Positions 8,405 to 20,840 of a DNA stretch of 27,115 bases are shown piece by piece. Each line of letters begins with the position of its first letter. Positions within the stretch are counted from its first letter, which is position 1. The notes below the pieces were generated by a model. It searched no databases, was not told the origin of the DNA, and was given only the letters and a program-made list of their open reading frames with translations. A program made the translations under genes and the position numbers. Origin of the DNA: a virus; IMG/VR virus record IMGVR_UViG_3300004805_000029, positions 1-27,115 of that record. One strand, given 5' to 3'.

Positions 8405-9610
8405 ATGAAAATCATACAAAGAAACGTCCTAGACCTTATCCCCTACGTTAATAACTCGCGCACTCATAGCGAAGCCCAAGTTATACAAATCGCGTCCAGC
8501 ATCAAAGAATTTGGCTTTACTAATCCCATACTGACAGACGGTGACAATGGCATTATTGCCGGTCATGGGCGCTTAATGGCAGCCAAGAAGATCGGCATGG
8601 AAGAAGTGCCAACCATTGAGCTAAGCCATCTATCCGAAGCGCAGAAGAAAGCCTATATCATCGCAGACAATAAGCTGGCACTGAATAGCGGATGGGATGA
8701 TGCCATGCTTGCCATTGAGTTTGCAGAGCTTGAGGATTTCGGGTTTGATTTGGAGTTGACGGGGTTTAGTCTGGAAGAAATAGCCGCGTTTGATGTGGAA
8801 GAAATACCCGAAGGATTGACGGATGAAGATGCGGTGCCGGAGTTACCTATTGAGCCTGTCACTAAGCTGGGCGATGTGTGGTTATGCGGTAATCATCGGG
8901 TCATGTGTGGCGATAGTACCAGTATTGATGCTGTTGATAAGCTGATGAATGGCAATAAGGCTGATATGGTATTTACTGATCCGCCGTATGGGATGTTTCT
9001 TGATGCAGATTATTCAGATATGGATAGCAAATTCAAAGGCCCTGCTGGTGGTAATAAATACGATCAAGTTATAGGTGATAACAACGACTTCTCGCCAGAG
9101 CTTATAAATACCATATTTGCAAACTTTTCATATTGCAAAGAGGTTTTTATGTGGGGAGCTGATTATTATGCAGAGCATATTGACAATAAAAATAGTGGTT
9201 CTTGGGTTGTTTGGGATAAACGCGGTGACGAATCAGCCGATAAGATGTATGGAAGCACGTTTGAGCTTTGCTGGAGTAAAGCTAGGCATAAAAGAATAAT
9301 GGCTAGAGTTAAATGGGCTGGAATATTTGGAATGGAAAAGGAGCATGATAAAAAACGATGCCATCCAACTCAAAAGCCAGTTGCACTTGTGGACTGGTTT
9401 ATGGATTATTTTAGCTTACAAGATGCGGTTAATGTAGTTGATTTATACGGAGGATCAGGAGCAACGCTCTTGTCATGTGATAAGCATAATAAAAAATGCT
9501 ACATGATGGAACTTGACCCAAAATACTGCGATGTTATCGTCAAACGCTGGCAAGACTTCACGGGCAAACAAGCCACATTAGAATCAACAGGCGAGTTATT
9601 CAATGGCTAA
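8405..9610 (+). CDS. ParB-like domain / beta-class DNA methyltransferase fusion
   Basis: A 401-residue protein starting on the base after the holin stop. Residues about 1-110 form a ParB-like domain with IAGHGRL at 51-57. The methylase follows: TDPPYG (191-196, motif IV), HPTQKP (320-325) and the SAM-binding DLYGGSG (346-352, motif I). Motif IV coming before motif I places it in the beta class of N6-adenine or N4-cytosine methylases. The order of parts matches many phage ParB-MTase fusions. It sits between lysis and terminase genes, so it should be made late, when new genomes are packaged. This suggests marking of packaged DNA against restriction, an inference. It overlaps the small terminase gene by 8 bases. 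Confidence 0.9.
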   Translation: MKIIQRNVLDLIPYVNNSRTHSEAQVIQIASSIKEFGFTNPILTDGDNGIIAGHGRLMAAKKIGMEEVPTIELSHLSEAQKKAYIIADNKLALNSGWDDAMLAIEFAELEDFGFDLELTGFSLEEIAAFDVEEIPEGLTDEDAVPELPIEPVTKLGDVWLCGNHRVMCGDSTSIDAVDKLMNGNKADMVFTDPPYGMFLDADYSDMDSKFKGPAGGNKYDQVIGDNNDFSPELINTIFANFSYCKEVFMWGADYYAEHIDNKNSGSWVVWDKRGDESADKMYGSTFELCWSKARHKRIMARVKWAGIFGMEKEHDKKRCHPTQKPVALVDWFMDYFSLQDAVNVVDLYGGSGATLLSCDKHNKKCYMMELDPKYCDVIVKRWQDFTGKQATLESTGELFNG

Positions 9611-15276: not shown

Positions 15277-15864
15277 ATGGACATTACACCAGAATTACAA
15301 GCGGCTATAGATGCAGCAGTTGAAGCAGCGACCAGCGGACTAAAGACTAAAAACCAAGAGTTGCTCGATAAAAACAAGAAGCTCATGAAAGGTCAAGAGA
15401 TTGACCCGCAAACGGTGGTTGATCTTGAGGCGCAAGTTGACAAGCTACAAGGCGAACTCCAAGCCAGTCAGAAGTCGACAAAAGAAACAGGTAAAAGCCT
15501 GGAGACTTTGCAGGCACAGTTAAAAGCAGAAACTGGGTTCACCCAGAAGCTTTTAATCGACAACGGCTTGACTGATGAACTTGTAAAGAATGGTGTAGCA
15601 CCGCAATTTTTACCGGCTGTGAAAGCCATGTTTGCAGGACAAGCGCAGATCGTAGCGGAGGGAGATACACGCACCGCCAGAATTGGCGATAAGTCGGTGT
15701 CTGATTTTGTGAAGGAATGGGCAGTCTCAGACGATGGTAAGCACTTTGTAAAGGCACCGGAAAACAGCGGTGGTGGCTCACAAGGAAGTGGGAACGGAAC
15801 AACGAATCAAATACCGCTAACGTCCACGCAGAAAATAGCGGCGGGGTTAGCTCAACAAACTTAA
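15277..15864 (+). CDS. scaffold protein
   Basis: A 195-residue protein with AAGGGGA (15266-15272) before its ATG. It is acidic and Gln/Lys-rich with a long coiled coil (residues about 20-90, heptads such as LEAQVDKLQGELQ), a globular middle (LLIDNGLTDELVKNGV) and a Gly/Ser-rich flexible tail. This is the make-up of phage scaffolding proteins of the gp20-like type, which guide capsid assembly and then leave. Its position just upstream of the major capsid gene agrees. Confidence 0.85.
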   Translation: MDITPELQAAIDAAVEAATSGLKTKNQELLDKNKKLMKGQEIDPQTVVDLEAQVDKLQGELQASQKSTKETGKSLETLQAQLKAETGFTQKLLIDNGLTDELVKNGVAPQFLPAVKAMFAGQAQIVAEGDTRTARIGDKSVSDFVKEWAVSDDGKHFVKAPENSGGGSQGSGNGTTNQIPLTSTQKIAAGLAQQT

Positions 15865-15879
15865 AACTTAGGAATAACA

Positions 15880-16818
15880 ATGGCAACTCAAACACTCGCA
15901 GAAGCAGCAAAACTTATCCAAAATCAGATCGTTGTTGGTGTGGCTGAAGATATTATCACTACCAACCCCATGTGGTCGGCAATGCCTTGGACTGGCTATG
16001 AGGGTCAAGCGATCTTAGTTAACCGTGAAAACGCTTTAGGTGACGCGCAAAACTTGGCAATCGGTGGCACTATCACAGCAAAAGCCGCTGCAACTTTTAC
16101 ACAAATCCCATTCTCAGCCACTACTACCATCGGTGATGCTGAAATAAACGGTTTGGTCGCTGCACAGTCAAGTGCTGCGGGTGTGAATCAGTTAGCCATT
16201 GAAATCAGCTCTAAAGCTAAATCAGTAGGTCGTTTATTGCAAGCTGGTGTTGCTACTGGAACAGGTACAGCGCCTGCATTGAACAGCTTACACAGCTTGT
16301 GCGATGCCACTCAATACACTACAGCTTCAGCCGGTCAAGCGATCAGCTTATTGTTGCTCGATCAACTGTTGGATCTAGTTAAATCAAAAGACGGTCAGGT
16401 TGATTGGATCATGTTACCGGGTAGAACTCTACGCAACTATAAAGCATTGGTTAGGGCTTTGGGTGGTATCACTGAAACAATGGCTTTCACTTTACCCAAT
16501 GGCACTCAACGTACTGTATCTGTGTATGAGGGTATCCCAATGTTCCAAAACGACTACTTATCTATTGCTGAAACCGCAAACGGTGCAGCTTTAACTGGTG
16601 GTGCTTTGGCTTCTGTGTATGCTGGTTGTTGGGATGATGGTAGCAACAAGGTGGGTGTTTCAATGATTCATCCAATCAACGTGCCAGCCGGTATTGCTAT
16701 TGAAACAGTGGGTGTGGCTGAGACTAAAGACGAGGTTATCACTCGCGTTAAGTCTTACTCAAACTTTGCAAGTTTTAACCGCAAAGGTATTGCTCGCTTA
16801 ACGTCTATCAATAATTAG
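15880..16818 (+). CDS. major capsid protein
   Basis: A 312-residue protein with TTAGGA (15868-15873) before its ATG, directly after the scaffold gene. The features fit a HK97-fold capsid protein: an N-terminal arm, a long helix block (SAAGVNQLAIEISSKAKSVG, the spine-helix region), a P-domain-like stretch around DWIMLPGRTLRNYKA, and a conserved-looking C-terminus (VGVAETKDEVITRVKSY) typical of the A-domain strand. No protease gene is seen nearby and there is no evident pro-region, so maturation cleavage is doubtful. Identity rests on order, size and fold-like pattern. Confidence 0.85.
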   Translation: MATQTLAEAAKLIQNQIVVGVAEDIITTNPMWSAMPWTGYEGQAILVNRENALGDAQNLAIGGTITAKAAATFTQIPFSATTTIGDAEINGLVAAQSSAAGVNQLAIEISSKAKSVGRLLQAGVATGTGTAPALNSLHSLCDATQYTTASAGQAISLLLLDQLLDLVKSKDGQVDWIMLPGRTLRNYKALVRALGGITETMAFTLPNGTQRTVSVYEGIPMFQNDYLSIAETANGAALTGGALASVYAGCWDDGSNKVGVSMIHPINVPAGIAIETVGVAETKDEVITRVKSYSNFASFNRKGIARLTSINN

Positions 16819-16879: not shown

Positions 16880-17296
16880 ATGGCAGCTTACGTTAAATAT
16901 ACAGCAGCAGTTGAACCACTAGCAGAAGGTGTAAACGCTGGAACGGATGCGTGGAAAGTGGCACTGGCTTTAACGGTCAACATAGCCGATACAGCATTTG
17001 TTGCAGGCACAACCGACCTTGCAACAGCGGCAGGCTATACAGCAGGCGGCAATGCTTGTGCAACGACCACATCAGCACAAACGGCAGGCACTTATAAGCT
17101 CGTACTGGCTAATCCAGCAGCATGGACAGCCACAGGCGCTGGCTTCACTTTCCGTTATGCAATCTTGTATAACTCAACGACAGGCGTTCCATTTGGTTAT
17201 TGGGATTATGGCAGTAACGTCGTTATGAACGGTACAAATGCCGATACTTTTACCGTCAACCTTGATGCCACGAATGGCGTGTTTTCAGTCGCCTGA
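16880..17296 (+). CDS. virion protein, capsid decoration candidate
   Basis: A 138-residue protein with AGGA (16871-16874) before its ATG. It is Ala/Thr/Gly-rich and beta-strand-rich throughout, with a compact C-terminal block (FRYAILYNST, FGYWDYGSNV, DTFTVNLDATNGVFSV) that recurs in phage head or fibre-associated proteins. Its place right after the major capsid gene is the usual place of a decoration or cement protein. I recognise no named family. It overlaps the repeat-protein gene (TGATG). Confidence 0.6.
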   Translation: MAAYVKYTAAVEPLAEGVNAGTDAWKVALALTVNIADTAFVAGTTDLATAAGYTAGGNACATTTSAQTAGTYKLVLANPAAWTATGAGFTFRYAILYNSTTGVPFGYWDYGSNVVMNGTNADTFTVNLDATNGVFSVA

Positions 17297-17925
17297 TGGA
17301 TGATTATGTTGTAGCGGGCTATTGGGTAGCGGGCTATGTCGTCAGCTCGAATACCAGTTACAGCTTAACTGGGGCAGCAGGCGCGTATTCGGTTACTGGT
17401 CAATCTGCAACATTAAAACTAGCGCACAAGCTAACAGCGATAAAGGGAAGTTATGCGCTAACAGGTTTGCCGGTTACTTTTTCAATCGCTCGAAAAATAG
17501 CCGCAGCAACAGGCGTTTATTCGGTCGCTGGTCAGTCATCAATATTATCGGTTGCTCGGAAGCTGAGTTGCTCACCAGCAACGTACACACTAACCGGCAA
17601 AGCATCATCGTTCGTTTACTCGCGCAACCTTAACGCAAACTCAAGCAGTTATTCAGTATCAGGAAAAGCGGCTGCATTAAATTACCTAGCAGGGCGTGCC
17701 AATTATGCAATGGCCTGTGCGAATGGCGTTTACAGATTAACTGGATTAGATGCTGCTCTGGCAATCCAGAGCATCATCAAATACCCACTCGCAGGCATAA
17801 GCAGAGCATTTGAGTTAAACGGCATTGCTAGAGGCTATGAGTTAGCAGGATTAACGGACACCATGCCGTTAAGTGGCGTTAGTAACAGCTATCCGTTATC
17901 AGGCATTAGCCGGAGTTATCCATGA
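17296..17925 (+). CDS. tandem-repeat virion protein (22-residue and 9-residue repeats)
   Basis: A 209-residue protein built almost wholly of repeats. Residues 29-116 are four 22-residue units (pattern G-x-Y-S/T-L/V-T-G, then a hydrophobic strand and a basic K/R-K/N), followed by a longer and a shorter degenerate unit to residue 162. Residues 163-209 switch to five 9-residue units of the form Y-P-L-S/A-G-I-S-R-x, ending the protein in YP. Regular strand-turn repeats suggest a beta-helix or beta-spiral rod. It lies between the decoration-like gene and the fibre gene and overlaps both (TGATG, ATGA). Function is not known; a stalk or carbohydrate-contacting appendage fits. Confidence 0.65.
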   Translation: MDDYVVAGYWVAGYVVSSNTSYSLTGAAGAYSVTGQSATLKLAHKLTAIKGSYALTGLPVTFSIARKIAAATGVYSVAGQSSILSVARKLSCSPATYTLTGKASSFVYSRNLNANSSSYSVSGKAAALNYLAGRANYAMACANGVYRLTGLDAALAIQSIIKYPLAGISRAFELNGIARGYELAGLTDTMPLSGVSNSYPLSGISRSYP

Positions 17926-18857
17926 GCACCATCGTTACGCGTACCGCAAACGGATCGCCGCTAACTATCTTGCAACTCGATGCCAACTTCACAAACTTAA
18001 ACACAAACAAGGCGGAAACGGCAAACCCAACTTTTACGGGTGCGGTTAAGATTGACTATGGAACAGCAGCAGCGCCTGCACTAGCGTTTTCAGGCTCAAC
18101 TAATACGGGAATTTACGGAAGTGGTACTGGCTTAACGTCATTAATTGGCTTTAGCATTAATGGCACAACCGTAGCGGAAATTGATAGTAGCGCAAGATTT
18201 TTTAGCGCAACGACCAAAATAGCAGGAAGCTTTAATTTTCAAGTAGGCGCAGTTAAAGCAGGGAGCAGCGGCAGTAATGCTGTGAGTATTGGAAACAACA
18301 ATACGATGTACGGGGCGTTTCCTATAGCAATCGGTGCTGAAAATATAGTCAATTCTCAATCGGTTGCAATAGGGGCGAATCATACGGTCAATACAGTTAG
18401 TTCAACTGCAATTGGCTCTGGTGTCACATCAGCGCATGATTTTCAAGTTTCGTTTGCAAACTGGGGGCTAGAAAGTGGACAACGCAGCGTTTATTGCTTA
18501 CGAGCCGACACATCAGATAACGCAACGCCAACATTAATGTCGATGTTCCCTGCTTATTTTGACGTGGCATCAATACCCGTTATTGCATCGCTTATATCCC
18601 TGAAAGGTCAGATTTTAGTCAGAGACACAACAACAGTTGGTTCGGCACTTTTTGACATAACAATTATGTCAACTAATCAAGTCTTACGAGGCGTAGTAAT
18701 CACCCCGATATTTGGAACTGGAACACTGACACTGGCTAATTTACCCGCAAGCAAAATACAAGTGGTTACGAGTACGGGAACACTAGCGATTAATGTAACC
18801 GGATTGGCAAGCAAGAACTTAGTTTGGCTGTCAACTTTAGACGCAACAGGGGCATAA
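17922..18857 (+). CDS. phage fibre/appendage protein with YadA-head-like repeats
   Basis: A 311-residue protein that opens like a tail fibre: TANGSPLTILQLDANFTNLN, then ALAFSGSTNTGIY (about 54-65), a motif common in trimeric phage fibres. Residues 119-168 contain four SIG/AIG repeats about 14 residues apart (VSIGNNN, IAIGAEN, VAIGANH, TAIGSG), as in the head of YadA-type trimeric adhesins. The C-terminal third is a beta-rich globular part (about 170-311) that may bind the receptor or cap the trimer. It is placed in the head gene cluster rather than after the tape measure, so a capsid-attached fibre is possible. Its start overlaps the repeat-protein stop (ATGA). Confidence 0.72.
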   Translation: MSTIVTRTANGSPLTILQLDANFTNLNTNKAETANPTFTGAVKIDYGTAAAPALAFSGSTNTGIYGSGTGLTSLIGFSINGTTVAEIDSSARFFSATTKIAGSFNFQVGAVKAGSSGSNAVSIGNNNTMYGAFPIAIGAENIVNSQSVAIGANHTVNTVSSTAIGSGVTSAHDFQVSFANWGLESGQRSVYCLRADTSDNATPTLMSMFPAYFDVASIPVIASLISLKGQILVRDTTTVGSALFDITIMSTNQVLRGVVITPIFGTGTLTLANLPASKIQVVTSTGTLAINVTGLASKNLVWLSTLDATGA

Positions 18858-18858
18858 C

Positions 18859-19119
18859 ATGGCATTGCAATTCAGCTTCGATAGTCAGTTCGATATTAAT
18901 TTTCCAACCGCCTATGCACGAGTTATTTCGTTTAATGGCGACAAGCTACAAGTTAATTTTTCGGTGGCTATTTATAAAGATCAACAGGCACGAGAAAGCA
19001 GCAAACAGCCGTTGTTATTTAGCAGGCACACCGTTGCATATATTGACGGAATGGCAATATCGTCGCTTTATGATTATTTAAAAACGCTACCAGAATTTAC
19101 CGGAGCGGTTGACGTATGA
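18859..19119 (+). CDS. hypothetical structural-region protein, 86 residues
   Basis: The ATG at 18859 follows the fibre stop by one base and the stop overlaps the next start (ATGA). The peptide has beta-strand-like stretches (FSFDSQFDINF, YARVISFNGDKLQVNFSVAIY) and a helical C-terminus (SLYDYLKTLPEF). I do not recognise it. Being between the fibre and connector genes it could be a fibre chaperone or an adaptor; no sequence evidence favours either. Confidence 0.7.
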   Translation: MALQFSFDSQFDINFPTAYARVISFNGDKLQVNFSVAIYKDQQARESSKQPLLFSRHTVAYIDGMAISSLYDYLKTLPEFTGAVDV

Positions 19120-19613
19120 GCTTAATCGTCGAAACCGGAACAGCCAGTTCAACCAGCGAAAGCCTATGCAGCGTTGCTGACTCACTCGCTTATCACTCAG
19201 CGCGTGGCAATGGCACATGGGCAACCATCACCACTACGCAGCAAGAGCAAGCACTACGTCGGGCTACTGATTATATGGAGGCGCTGTACTCGCAAAGATG
19301 GGCAGGCACGCGCACGACATCAACACAAGCCCTGTCATGGCCTCGTTACAGTGTCTTTGTAAATGGCTATGTCACGTCAAGTTCAGCGGTGCCAAGAGCC
19401 ATTGTTAATGCTTGCTCTGAACTCGCCTTGAGAGCCGCAGCCGGTGAATTGTTGAGTGATTCAACACAACAAAAGACCCGAACCAAGGTAGGTGACATTG
19501 AGGTTGAATTTGATAAATACTCGCCTGCATCTACGCAGTATTTAGCCATCACCGCCTCGTTAGCACCTTACTTCGAGTTGGCCTCTAGCTTAGAGCGTAA
19601 GGTCGTCAGGTGA
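19116..19613 (+). CDS. head-tail connector (adaptor) protein
   Basis: A 165-residue protein of the phage family often labelled DnaT-like. Seen: VETGTASSTSESLCSVADSLAYHSARGNGTWA (a YxxxRG type turn), the helix QQEQALRRATDYMEA, SWPRYSVFVNG, and the helix PRAIVNACSELALRAA. This is the helical-bundle layout of HK97 gp6/lambda-like adaptors that bind under the portal ring. It is the first gene of the neck series: adaptor, stopper, gp10-like, tail terminator. It ends in a GTGA overlap with the next gene. Confidence 0.8.
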   Translation: MSLIVETGTASSTSESLCSVADSLAYHSARGNGTWATITTTQQEQALRRATDYMEALYSQRWAGTRTTSTQALSWPRYSVFVNGYVTSSSAVPRAIVNACSELALRAAAGELLSDSTQQKTRTKVGDIEVEFDKYSPASTQYLAITASLAPYFELASSLERKVVR

Positions 19614-19969
19614 GCTTTTACGCTGACATGGCATTGGTTGCAGACAACACCCTGAAAGACTTGGGGCAGTTGGTCACGCTCACCACTAAAACGGTAGGCG
19701 CTTACAATCCAGCGACTGGCAATGCAGCAGTAACCGTATCAACGCAACAAGTCAAGGCAGTCGTGTTTCCTCGTGGTGCTAAGGATATTGACGGCACACT
19801 CATTCAACAAGGCGATCAAAAGTTATTACTGTCTATGGCAGGGGTAACAGCGCCGCATTTAGATGATACCGTTACGATTGGCGCTACCACTTACACCATC
19901 ACTTTTATCAAGCTACTCGCACCCGCAGGCGTTAACGTCTTGTGTGAATGTAATATCAGGGGCGTGTGA
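19610..19969 (+). CDS. head closure (stopper) protein
   Basis: A 119-residue protein starting at GTG 19610, inside the stop of the adaptor gene. A short N-terminal helix with LVADNTLKDLG leads into a beta-barrel-like pattern (LVTLTTKTVG, VKAVVFPRG, KLLLSMAGV, DTVTIGATTYTITFIKLL) ending with strand LCECNIRG. This matches small neck proteins that close the portal channel after packaging. It is positioned between the adaptor and the gp10-like protein, as in many siphoviruses. Confidence 0.72.
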   Translation: MSFYADMALVADNTLKDLGQLVTLTTKTVGAYNPATGNAAVTVSTQQVKAVVFPRGAKDIDGTLIQQGDQKLLLSMAGVTAPHLDDTVTIGATTYTITFIKLLAPAGVNVLCECNIRGV

Positions 19970-20451
19970 TGGCCGGTAACTTTGCACTGGATATATCACG
20001 CTTTGTTAATCGGACTCACAGCAATGTGGATTTAGTGACTAAGAAAGTCATCATTAATTTAATGCGCTCAGTAGTCAGAAAATCACCTGTGGGTAATCCT
20101 GAGATCTGGGTAACGATGCACAATGGGCAATATGTCGATTATGAATCGGTACACGGTATCAGTATCTATATAGGTGGACGCTTTAAAGCTAACTGGCAAT
20201 ATGAAAACGGCTCTATGCCTAGTGACACCCTAGATGGAGTTGATGCAAGTGGGGGCGCTACACTGGCTCGCATGATTGGCGAAATACCACAACAAGCATC
20301 AGGAAAGATTCACTACATCGTTAATAATCTACCTTATTCAATCAGACTTGAAAATGGTTGGTCATCACAAGCGCCATTAGGAATGGTGGGGTTGACCATA
20401 TCAGAATACCAAGGCGTTGTAAGACGTGCAGTTCAGGAGGTTAATCCATGA
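19969..20451 (+). CDS. HK97 gp10-like neck/tail completion protein
   Basis: A 160-residue protein. The ATG at 19969 has AGGGG (19958-19962) six bases upstream; a GTG just before it is in frame but less well placed. The pattern VTKKVIINLMRSVVRKSPVG, then GGRFKANWQ, later YSIRLENGWSSQAPLGMV and a final helix, is typical of the HK97 gp10/minor tail Z-type family (a helix, a P-V-G-x-x-x turn, and Y-x-x-x-L-E-x-G-x-S). These join the head neck to the tail terminator. The end overlaps the next gene (ATGA). Confidence 0.78.
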   Translation: MAGNFALDISRFVNRTHSNVDLVTKKVIINLMRSVVRKSPVGNPEIWVTMHNGQYVDYESVHGISIYIGGRFKANWQYENGSMPSDTLDGVDASGGATLARMIGEIPQQASGKIHYIVNNLPYSIRLENGWSSQAPLGMVGLTISEYQGVVRRAVQEVNP

Positions 20452-20840
20452 GTATTTCCGCTATTCGTAGCACTCTGGAATCAGCGCTTGACGGCATGAC
20501 ACCGGCACTGGCGACAGCATGGCAGAACGTGCCTTTTACGCCGGTAACGGGTACACCTTACCAACGTGCTAGTTTGCTATTAGCCGAACCCGACAACCAA
20601 GAGTTTGGGGCAAGCTTTCAGGAACAAGGCTTTTTGCAGGTGGATTTATGTTATCCGCAGTCGGTCGGCTCTAACGCAGTTGAAGCGCGTGCTGAATTAT
20701 TACGCACAACTTTTAAACGCGGAACCTCGTTGGGTGGCTTAACGATTACCGCTACACCAGAAGTAAAACCAGCTTACAACGATGGGGATAGATATGTGAT
20801 ACCCGTCAGAATTCGTTTTCACACTTACATTTCAACATAA
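20448..20840 (+). CDS. tail terminator protein, DUF4128-like
   Basis: A 130-residue protein beginning in an ATGA overlap. It shows IRSTLESALDGM at the N-terminus, VPFTPVTGTPYQRASLLLAEP, the G-F-LQVDLCYP strand, a helix with EARAELLRTTFKRGT, and a terminal strand YVIPVRIRFHTY. This alpha/beta order matches tail terminators of the gpU/DUF4128 type, which cap the growing tail tube and join it to the head. It lies just before the tail tube gene. Confidence 0.78.
   Translation: MSISAIRSTLESALDGMTPALATAWQNVPFTPVTGTPYQRASLLLAEPDNQEFGASFQEQGFLQVDLCYPQSVGSNAVEARAELLRTTFKRGTSLGGLTITATPEVKPAYNDGDRYVIPVRIRFHTYIST

Follow-up and report, generated by a model that had tools for sequence, protein, structure and literature searches.

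Many phage fibres are trimers, and the adenovirus-type shaft is a triple β-spiral of tandem short β repeats, with a unit of about 15 residues and a conserved turn glycine. The T4-type baseplate wedge domain (PDB chain 5iv5_BJ, which by its length we take to be gp7) is part of a 1004-residue chain in a contractile baseplate. Neck whiskers are described in Shigella phage Sf14, where they are gp30 and gp31, encoded after the portal gene gp29 (PMC11821841), and the structure of Ralstonia phage GP4 (8JOU), which includes a fibre-tail adaptor (chain 8jou_a), is treated in PMC13243795.

The locus described here, in which a tandem-repeat gene follows a relative of the protein family PHROG 644, compares with these systems as follows. 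The repeat protein has a unit of 22 residues with variants of 27 and 9, unlike the adenovirus-type shaft. Its upstream partner resembles in predicted fold the wedge domain, the GP4 adaptor over its full length, the connector of phage Bas63 (9mt4) and the Sf14 whiskers, but we found no contractile tail genes among the genes scanned in our DNA, no profile-level sequence relation to the GP4 adaptor and no sequence relation to the whiskers. The Sf14 whisker genes follow the portal gene, and the repeat cassette does likewise in two relatives (loci are denoted by L numbers; here L108 and L091). The whiskers, whose FelixO1 homologues have 110 and 166 aa, differ further in that they come without 22-residue arrays, as far as their description in PMC11821841 extends.

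The repeat gene lies in a structural gene module

The window (the whole 27,115-base virus record that was analysed) encodes terminase, portal, an SPP1 gp7-like protein, scaffold and major head protein, and further head-tail connectors, tail terminator and tape measure. It also holds two separate genes (74-1276 and 8405-9610) with ParB-like and DNA-methyltransferase matches. The genes around the repeat gene are:

15277..15864, + strand, scaffolding protein (phrog_206, E 2e-20)
15880..16818, + strand, major head protein (phrog_212, E 2e-44)
16880..17296, + strand, PHROG-644 relative and proposed appendage adaptor, with a stop codon that overlaps the start of the repeat gene (TGATG)
17296..17925, + strand, repeat protein gene (open reading frame with ATG start, 209 aa)
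17912..17915, + strand, GGAG within the last repeat-gene codons, likely the Shine-Dalgarno sequence of the gene that follows (from the sequence)
17922..18857, + strand, fibre-like protein, with a start codon that overlaps the stop of the repeat gene (ATGA)
19116..20840, + strand, head-tail adaptor, head closure, neck/tail completion and tail terminator genes (PHROG scan)

The repeat gene belongs by position to the head/neck module and overlaps its upstream neighbour by one base and its downstream neighbour by four. No family match for the fibre-like protein was found in Pfam, PHROGs or NCBIfam.

The repeat protein has six long units and five short ones

Self-comparison of the repeat protein gave a period of 22 for residues 1-160 (mean BLOSUM62 0.83, against at most 0.22 in 2000 shuffles) and a period of 9, with its multiples 18, 27 and 36, for residues 160-209 (0 of 2000 shuffles as high). 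The parts of the protein are:

17305..17343, + strand, 5-residue steps YVVAG/YWVAG/YVV near the N-terminus, residues 4-16 (translation)
17380..17643, + strand, four 22-residue units, residues 29-116 (self-comparison and unit profile)
17644..17724, + strand, unit 5, a 27-residue form, residues 117-143 (unit profile)
17725..17781, + strand, unit 6, continuing into the 9-mers, residues 144-162 (unit profile)
17782..17916, + strand, five 9-residue units, residues 163-207, followed by YP and the stop codon (self-comparison)

A unit profile was built from distinct 22-mers of relatives (193 counted), without the window or L003, which is closely homologous to it; the pattern of the profile is Y-x-V-T-G-Q-x-A-x-L...L-x-A-x-x-G, in tandem at about 22 residues. 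With this profile we found six long units in the window protein (anchors Y31, Y53, Y75, Y97, Y119 and Y146) that score 12.9-27.6 bits; shuffled proteins reach 9.6 at most, and their 99th percentile is 7.9. All six exceed the 7.9-bit 99% threshold, which places the protein in a 22-residue repeat family of phage proteins. The four clean units that the first-pass annotation had described at residues 29-116 are thus borne out by both methods. Its two degenerate units are present as well, but units 5 and 6 score above shuffled proteins on a profile made from relatives only; hence, they are real units rather than degenerate ones, and one of them has 27 residues.

The fifth unit reaches 27 residues by five extra ones, and 27-residue units also occur in L095, L101, L106 and L121. 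We collected 69 off-length units, of which the window and L003 supply two; in 48, the indel is best placed at unit positions 10-15. Such a clustering would be expected of length changes that sit in a loop. An internal stretch of L119 resembles the 5-residue steps at the N-terminus of the window protein.

The window units are imperfect (23-50% identical). The 22-residue unit has strongly repeated identical positions, and half of the residues of the protein are A, S, G or L. At the DNA level, the four clean units are pairwise 39-59% identical, and TRF found no DNA tandem array within the repeat gene. Hence, the repeats are old. Comparing the window with L003 gave a pN/pS of 0.39 for the repeat gene, 0.24 for the upstream gene and 0.13 for the downstream gene; the repeat gene is under constraint, yet is the least constrained of the three.

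The repeat family is widespread but undescribed among phages

The window protein lies below curated cut-offs in Pfam and NCBIfam and has no PHROGs match at E<0.001. In the open-access literature searched we found no description of the family, no paper with the repeat motif strings or 'phrog_644', and none on a 22-residue phage capsid repeat. Hence, the first-pass remark that no such protein is recognised holds for these databases and this literature, but there are many uncharacterised relatives, and the family is widespread among phages and, as far as that literature goes, undescribed. Relatives in IMG/VR carry from 2 to 22 long units by profile count, including:

2 long units: L013, L014 and L019, behind a different N-terminal domain
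6 long units: L091 and L092
11 long units: L108-L111, L114, L116 and L096
15 long units: L105 and L128
22 long units: L119

The comparison of unit number that the first reading had proposed shows variation over the family and constancy within one clade, in which 7 of 7 proteins have 11 units (successive pairs 67-99% identical). In contrast, L095 has 6 units and L100 has 12, despite 66% identity over 186 aligned positions. In L012-L019 and L099, two to five 22-residue units stand at the C-terminus and the N-terminal parts are unrelated to the array; their N-terminal start is mostly of RYWVGG type, which shows that domains are swapped ahead of the array.

Named-phage relatives are few: EBPR siphovirus 2 and four Manatee Spring phages that are nearly identical to one another. 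Gordonia phage matches are weak (E 0.1-0.2), and two scans of bacterial genome contigs for a host found no relative. Pfam and PHROG scans of ten relatives gave scattered weak matches only, apart from L119 and L100. L119 exceeds the curated cut-offs of Toast_rack_N (30.6 against 22) and NTF2 (21.7 against 21) with no single stretch significant, so we read these scores as sums over repeats. In L100, 22 residues match phrog_9515 (52 positions, function unknown) at E 2e-4.

A PHROG-644 gene precedes the repeat gene

From the repeat loci fetched, L001 among them, near-identical or re-fetched ones were removed by hand, and 43 were analysed. A PHROG-644 homologue lies upstream on the same strand, at a distance of 3-5496 nt, in 32 of these 43 loci, many of which are near-duplicates (L003 closely copies the window), and none lies downstream; the profile used holds 51 sequences, with eleven rows supplied by the repeat loci. 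The window's partner alone as a tblastn query found a homologue in 29 of 43. Since the repeat protein was the query that fetched the loci, the link to the partner is not built in.

Seven of the 11 loci with no partner match have <500 nt of upstream DNA; the other four (L106, L107, L126 and L127) have no match despite 1.6-5.9 kb. A second partner match in L100 lies on the opposite strand at the contig edge. EBPR siphovirus 2 (L021) carries a partner homologue too, and the partner profile found none in FelixO1.

The reverse does not hold. Partner searches fetched 65 loci, and among the 48 in which the next gene was read, only L026, a window-type copy, has a repeat gene directly downstream. In L071 the partner is followed by a long protein that has a single unit-like stretch, close to its beginning. 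The remaining partner loci have various next genes, a few groups of which share the N-terminal motif GSxLT..(E/Q)xDxN, found in 18 open reading frames (many of them copies), including the window's gene at 17922..18857. We read the partner as an adaptor with interchangeable cargo.

Two minor points concern the partner family. PHROG-644-like genes occur as tandem pairs in L038 (5001-5869), L039 (3204-4070) and L119 (2141-2988), and a PHROG-644 relative in MW202742 (L001, 1360-1785) is labelled 'general glycosylation pathway protein', a name that is probably wrong.

The partner is predicted to have an adaptor-type fold

The model of the partner is confident (pLDDT 88.9, pTM 0.84). Foldseek gave no match at E<=0.001. 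When candidates were aligned with VIA-align, the top seven (Z 10.7 to 4.2) were all virion proteins of tailed viruses, from phages or archaeal viruses, and the first unrelated row had Z 3.5:

5iv5_BJ: Z 10.7, 2.6 Å, 122 of 138 residues
9f4a_A0: Z 10.6, 2.7 Å, 125 residues
8jou_a: Z 8.2, 3.4 Å, 117 of 136 residues
9mt4_K: Z 7.0, 3.4 Å, 97 residues
9c39_K: Z 6.7, 3.4 Å, 100 residues
9h4p_BD: Z 6.3, 3.5 Å, 107 residues
9rkv_A: Z 4.2, 4.2 Å, 108 residues

The model agrees with an adaptor-type fold over the whole chain (8jou_a and 5iv5_BJ). Its profile found no relevant PDB chain and hence no detectable sequence homology to a whisker or fibre adaptor, and hhalign against the whisker protein gave a probability of 0.4%. 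Therefore, the likeness is one of fold and context, not of membership. Chain 9c39_K is a homologue of FelixO1 ORF55, and chain 9c39_I (PDB name gp127) of ORF54. Since a table of the Sf14 paper equates gp127 with gp30 (PMC11821841), ORF55 corresponds by gene order to the Sf14 whisker gp31. From the fold matches to neck-whisker, fibre-adaptor and baseplate-wedge proteins, appendage docking is a candidate function of PHROG 644.

The repeat protein is modelled as a β-solenoid at low confidence

The AlphaFold model of the repeat protein, from an alignment of 52 rows in which L001 is absent, has a mean pLDDT of 58.4 and a pTM of 0.63; blocks at residues 31-130 reach pLDDT 66-78, whereas residues 158-171 and 176-209 stay <50. 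Hence, the monomer prediction suggested by the first reading returned a low-confidence solenoid over the 22-mers and left the 9-mers without a regular fold. The model agrees with parallel coils, one per repeat, at low pLDDT and with the AlphaFold2 bias considered below.

Foldseek found no PDB match at E<=0.001 and, among predicted viral proteins, one match at E 9e-4, to an uncharacterised 841-residue phage protein. The weak top fold neighbours are all β-helices. Right-handed ones align at about 3 Å, compared with about 12 Å for LpxD and GlmU, whose folds we take to be left-handed; hence, the model is right-handed. Among right-handed β-solenoid adhesins, 4wa0, 4rm6 and 7qpk align at 3.0-3.4 Å (Z 12.5-14.4), but this low-confidence model has no significant Foldseek E-value and no sequence match to them. 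AlphaFold2 turns random perfect repeats into confident β-solenoids (PMC11795689). Because of this bias, we give a right-handed parallel β-solenoid for the repeat protein only about even odds; the imperfection of the units lessens the concern, which is still there.

A stalk carried by the PHROG-644 adaptor, and its rivals

The best reading, drawn from gene order and from the fold predicted for the linked upstream protein, is that the repeat protein serves a virion appendage as its stalk or whole shaft, interchangeable and carried by the PHROG-644 adaptor at the neck or tail; we put it at about even odds. What we observe is the repeat array, the family of 2-22 units, the overlapping genes on both sides and the linked upstream gene with its confident adaptor-type model; from these we infer virion location, partner binding, rod shape and a role in adsorption. 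The partner would be an adaptor at the neck or tail to which the repeat protein docks as one of several swappable appendages. Each long unit would add one β coil to a narrow rod, so that unit number would set its reach, and at its C-terminal end the 9-mers would make a thinner segment. Such a rod would keep adsorption elements at a distance from the particle, or itself contact host surface polymers. A more specific version, which we hold only tentatively, would make the protein a new class of whisker or fibre rod: a right-handed β-solenoid of 22-residue coils with unit number as length ruler, plugged into the PHROG 644 adaptor, swappable, common to phages with different head genes and having a recurrent tip of 9-11-residue repeats.

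The position of the gene in the window, two genes after the major head protein, suits a fibre or decoration protein of the head vertex or capsid surface, bound to the major head protein instead of a neck adaptor. The L103 repeat gene also follows the major head gene, from which several genes separate it, and in both loci the repeat gene comes before the head-tail adaptor. However, in L108 and L091 it is the portal gene that the repeat gene follows, and the best fold matches of the partner are wedge, fibre-adaptor and neck-whisker proteins, which makes the head placement improbable; L095 has it upstream of the major head protein, and L119 just upstream of a tail-fibre gene. Listed decoration proteins are missing from the partner's fold matches, an absence that excludes nothing. 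The earlier proposal of a β-spiral rod or stalk in the head-fibre cluster is therefore kept as to a rod or stalk in a fibre-type cluster, on gene order and the partner's predicted fold, and is altered as to β-spiral and head, since the model is a β-solenoid and the partner matches a neck whisker, a fibre adaptor and a baseplate wedge, not a head vertex protein.

An intertwined shaft, such as a trimeric β-spiral, would be impossible to model from the monomer alone and would make the solenoid an artefact. The trimeric nature of many phage fibres, the low confidence of the model and the bias described in PMC11795689 favour such a shaft; the identical positions repeated through the 22-residue unit, as in stacked coils, and the β-helices among the weak fold matches speak against it, each being compatible with a trimer too, and we consider it unlikely. 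The composition in A, S, G and L and the low pLDDT of the 9-mer region would also fit a flexible, largely disordered low-complexity linker, or a protein outside the virion, but unit number is fixed within a clade, selection is purifying and the gene overlaps its neighbours in a structural module, so that this is very improbable.

If the stalk reading is correct, the length of an appendage could be read from the unit number in metagenomic phages. Scattered unannotated phage proteins would be tied to one adaptor family, and PHROG 644, whose function is unknown, would gain a testable role in docking interchangeable neck or tail appendages.

Short-period arrays recur at the C-terminus

The first-pass annotation had reported five 9-residue units running to the C-terminus; we found them, followed by a final YP. 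The aromatic-x-hydrophobic-x-Gly core that it noted in both unit types is visible, but its suggestion that the 9-mer is a trimmed 22-mer is not supported, as 768 of 5000 column permutations matched the likeness to the 22-mer profile, and a register test gave it no support either. An internal half-unit duplication (22 = 13+9) as the source of the 9-mer was rejected, with the profile self-similarity matched by 2879 of 5000 position permutations.

RTX nonapeptide β-rolls follow the pattern GGxGxDxUx, and the five 9-mers have neither GG nor a conserved Asp. Significant short-period C-terminal tails also occur in L103 (period 9), L105 (10) and L119 (11), with 0 of 500 shuffles as high in each. Hence, a 22-residue array finished by a short-period array is recurrent. 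The tail of L140 has a period of 7 (0 of 500 shuffles) in a charged region and was left uncounted. A switch from 22 to 9 residues, or to 9, 10 or 11 in relatives, would be a natural case of coil-size change within one rod.

Many relatives of the repeat protein end in a conserved LRSFTERRRF. We rejected this motif as an anchor: its RRR codons contain the AGGAG of the next gene, so that the conservation of the C-terminal Arg residues is partly a DNA constraint. This likely Shine-Dalgarno sequence lies inside the RRR codons at the 3' ends of the repeat genes of L108, L091, L095 and L011.
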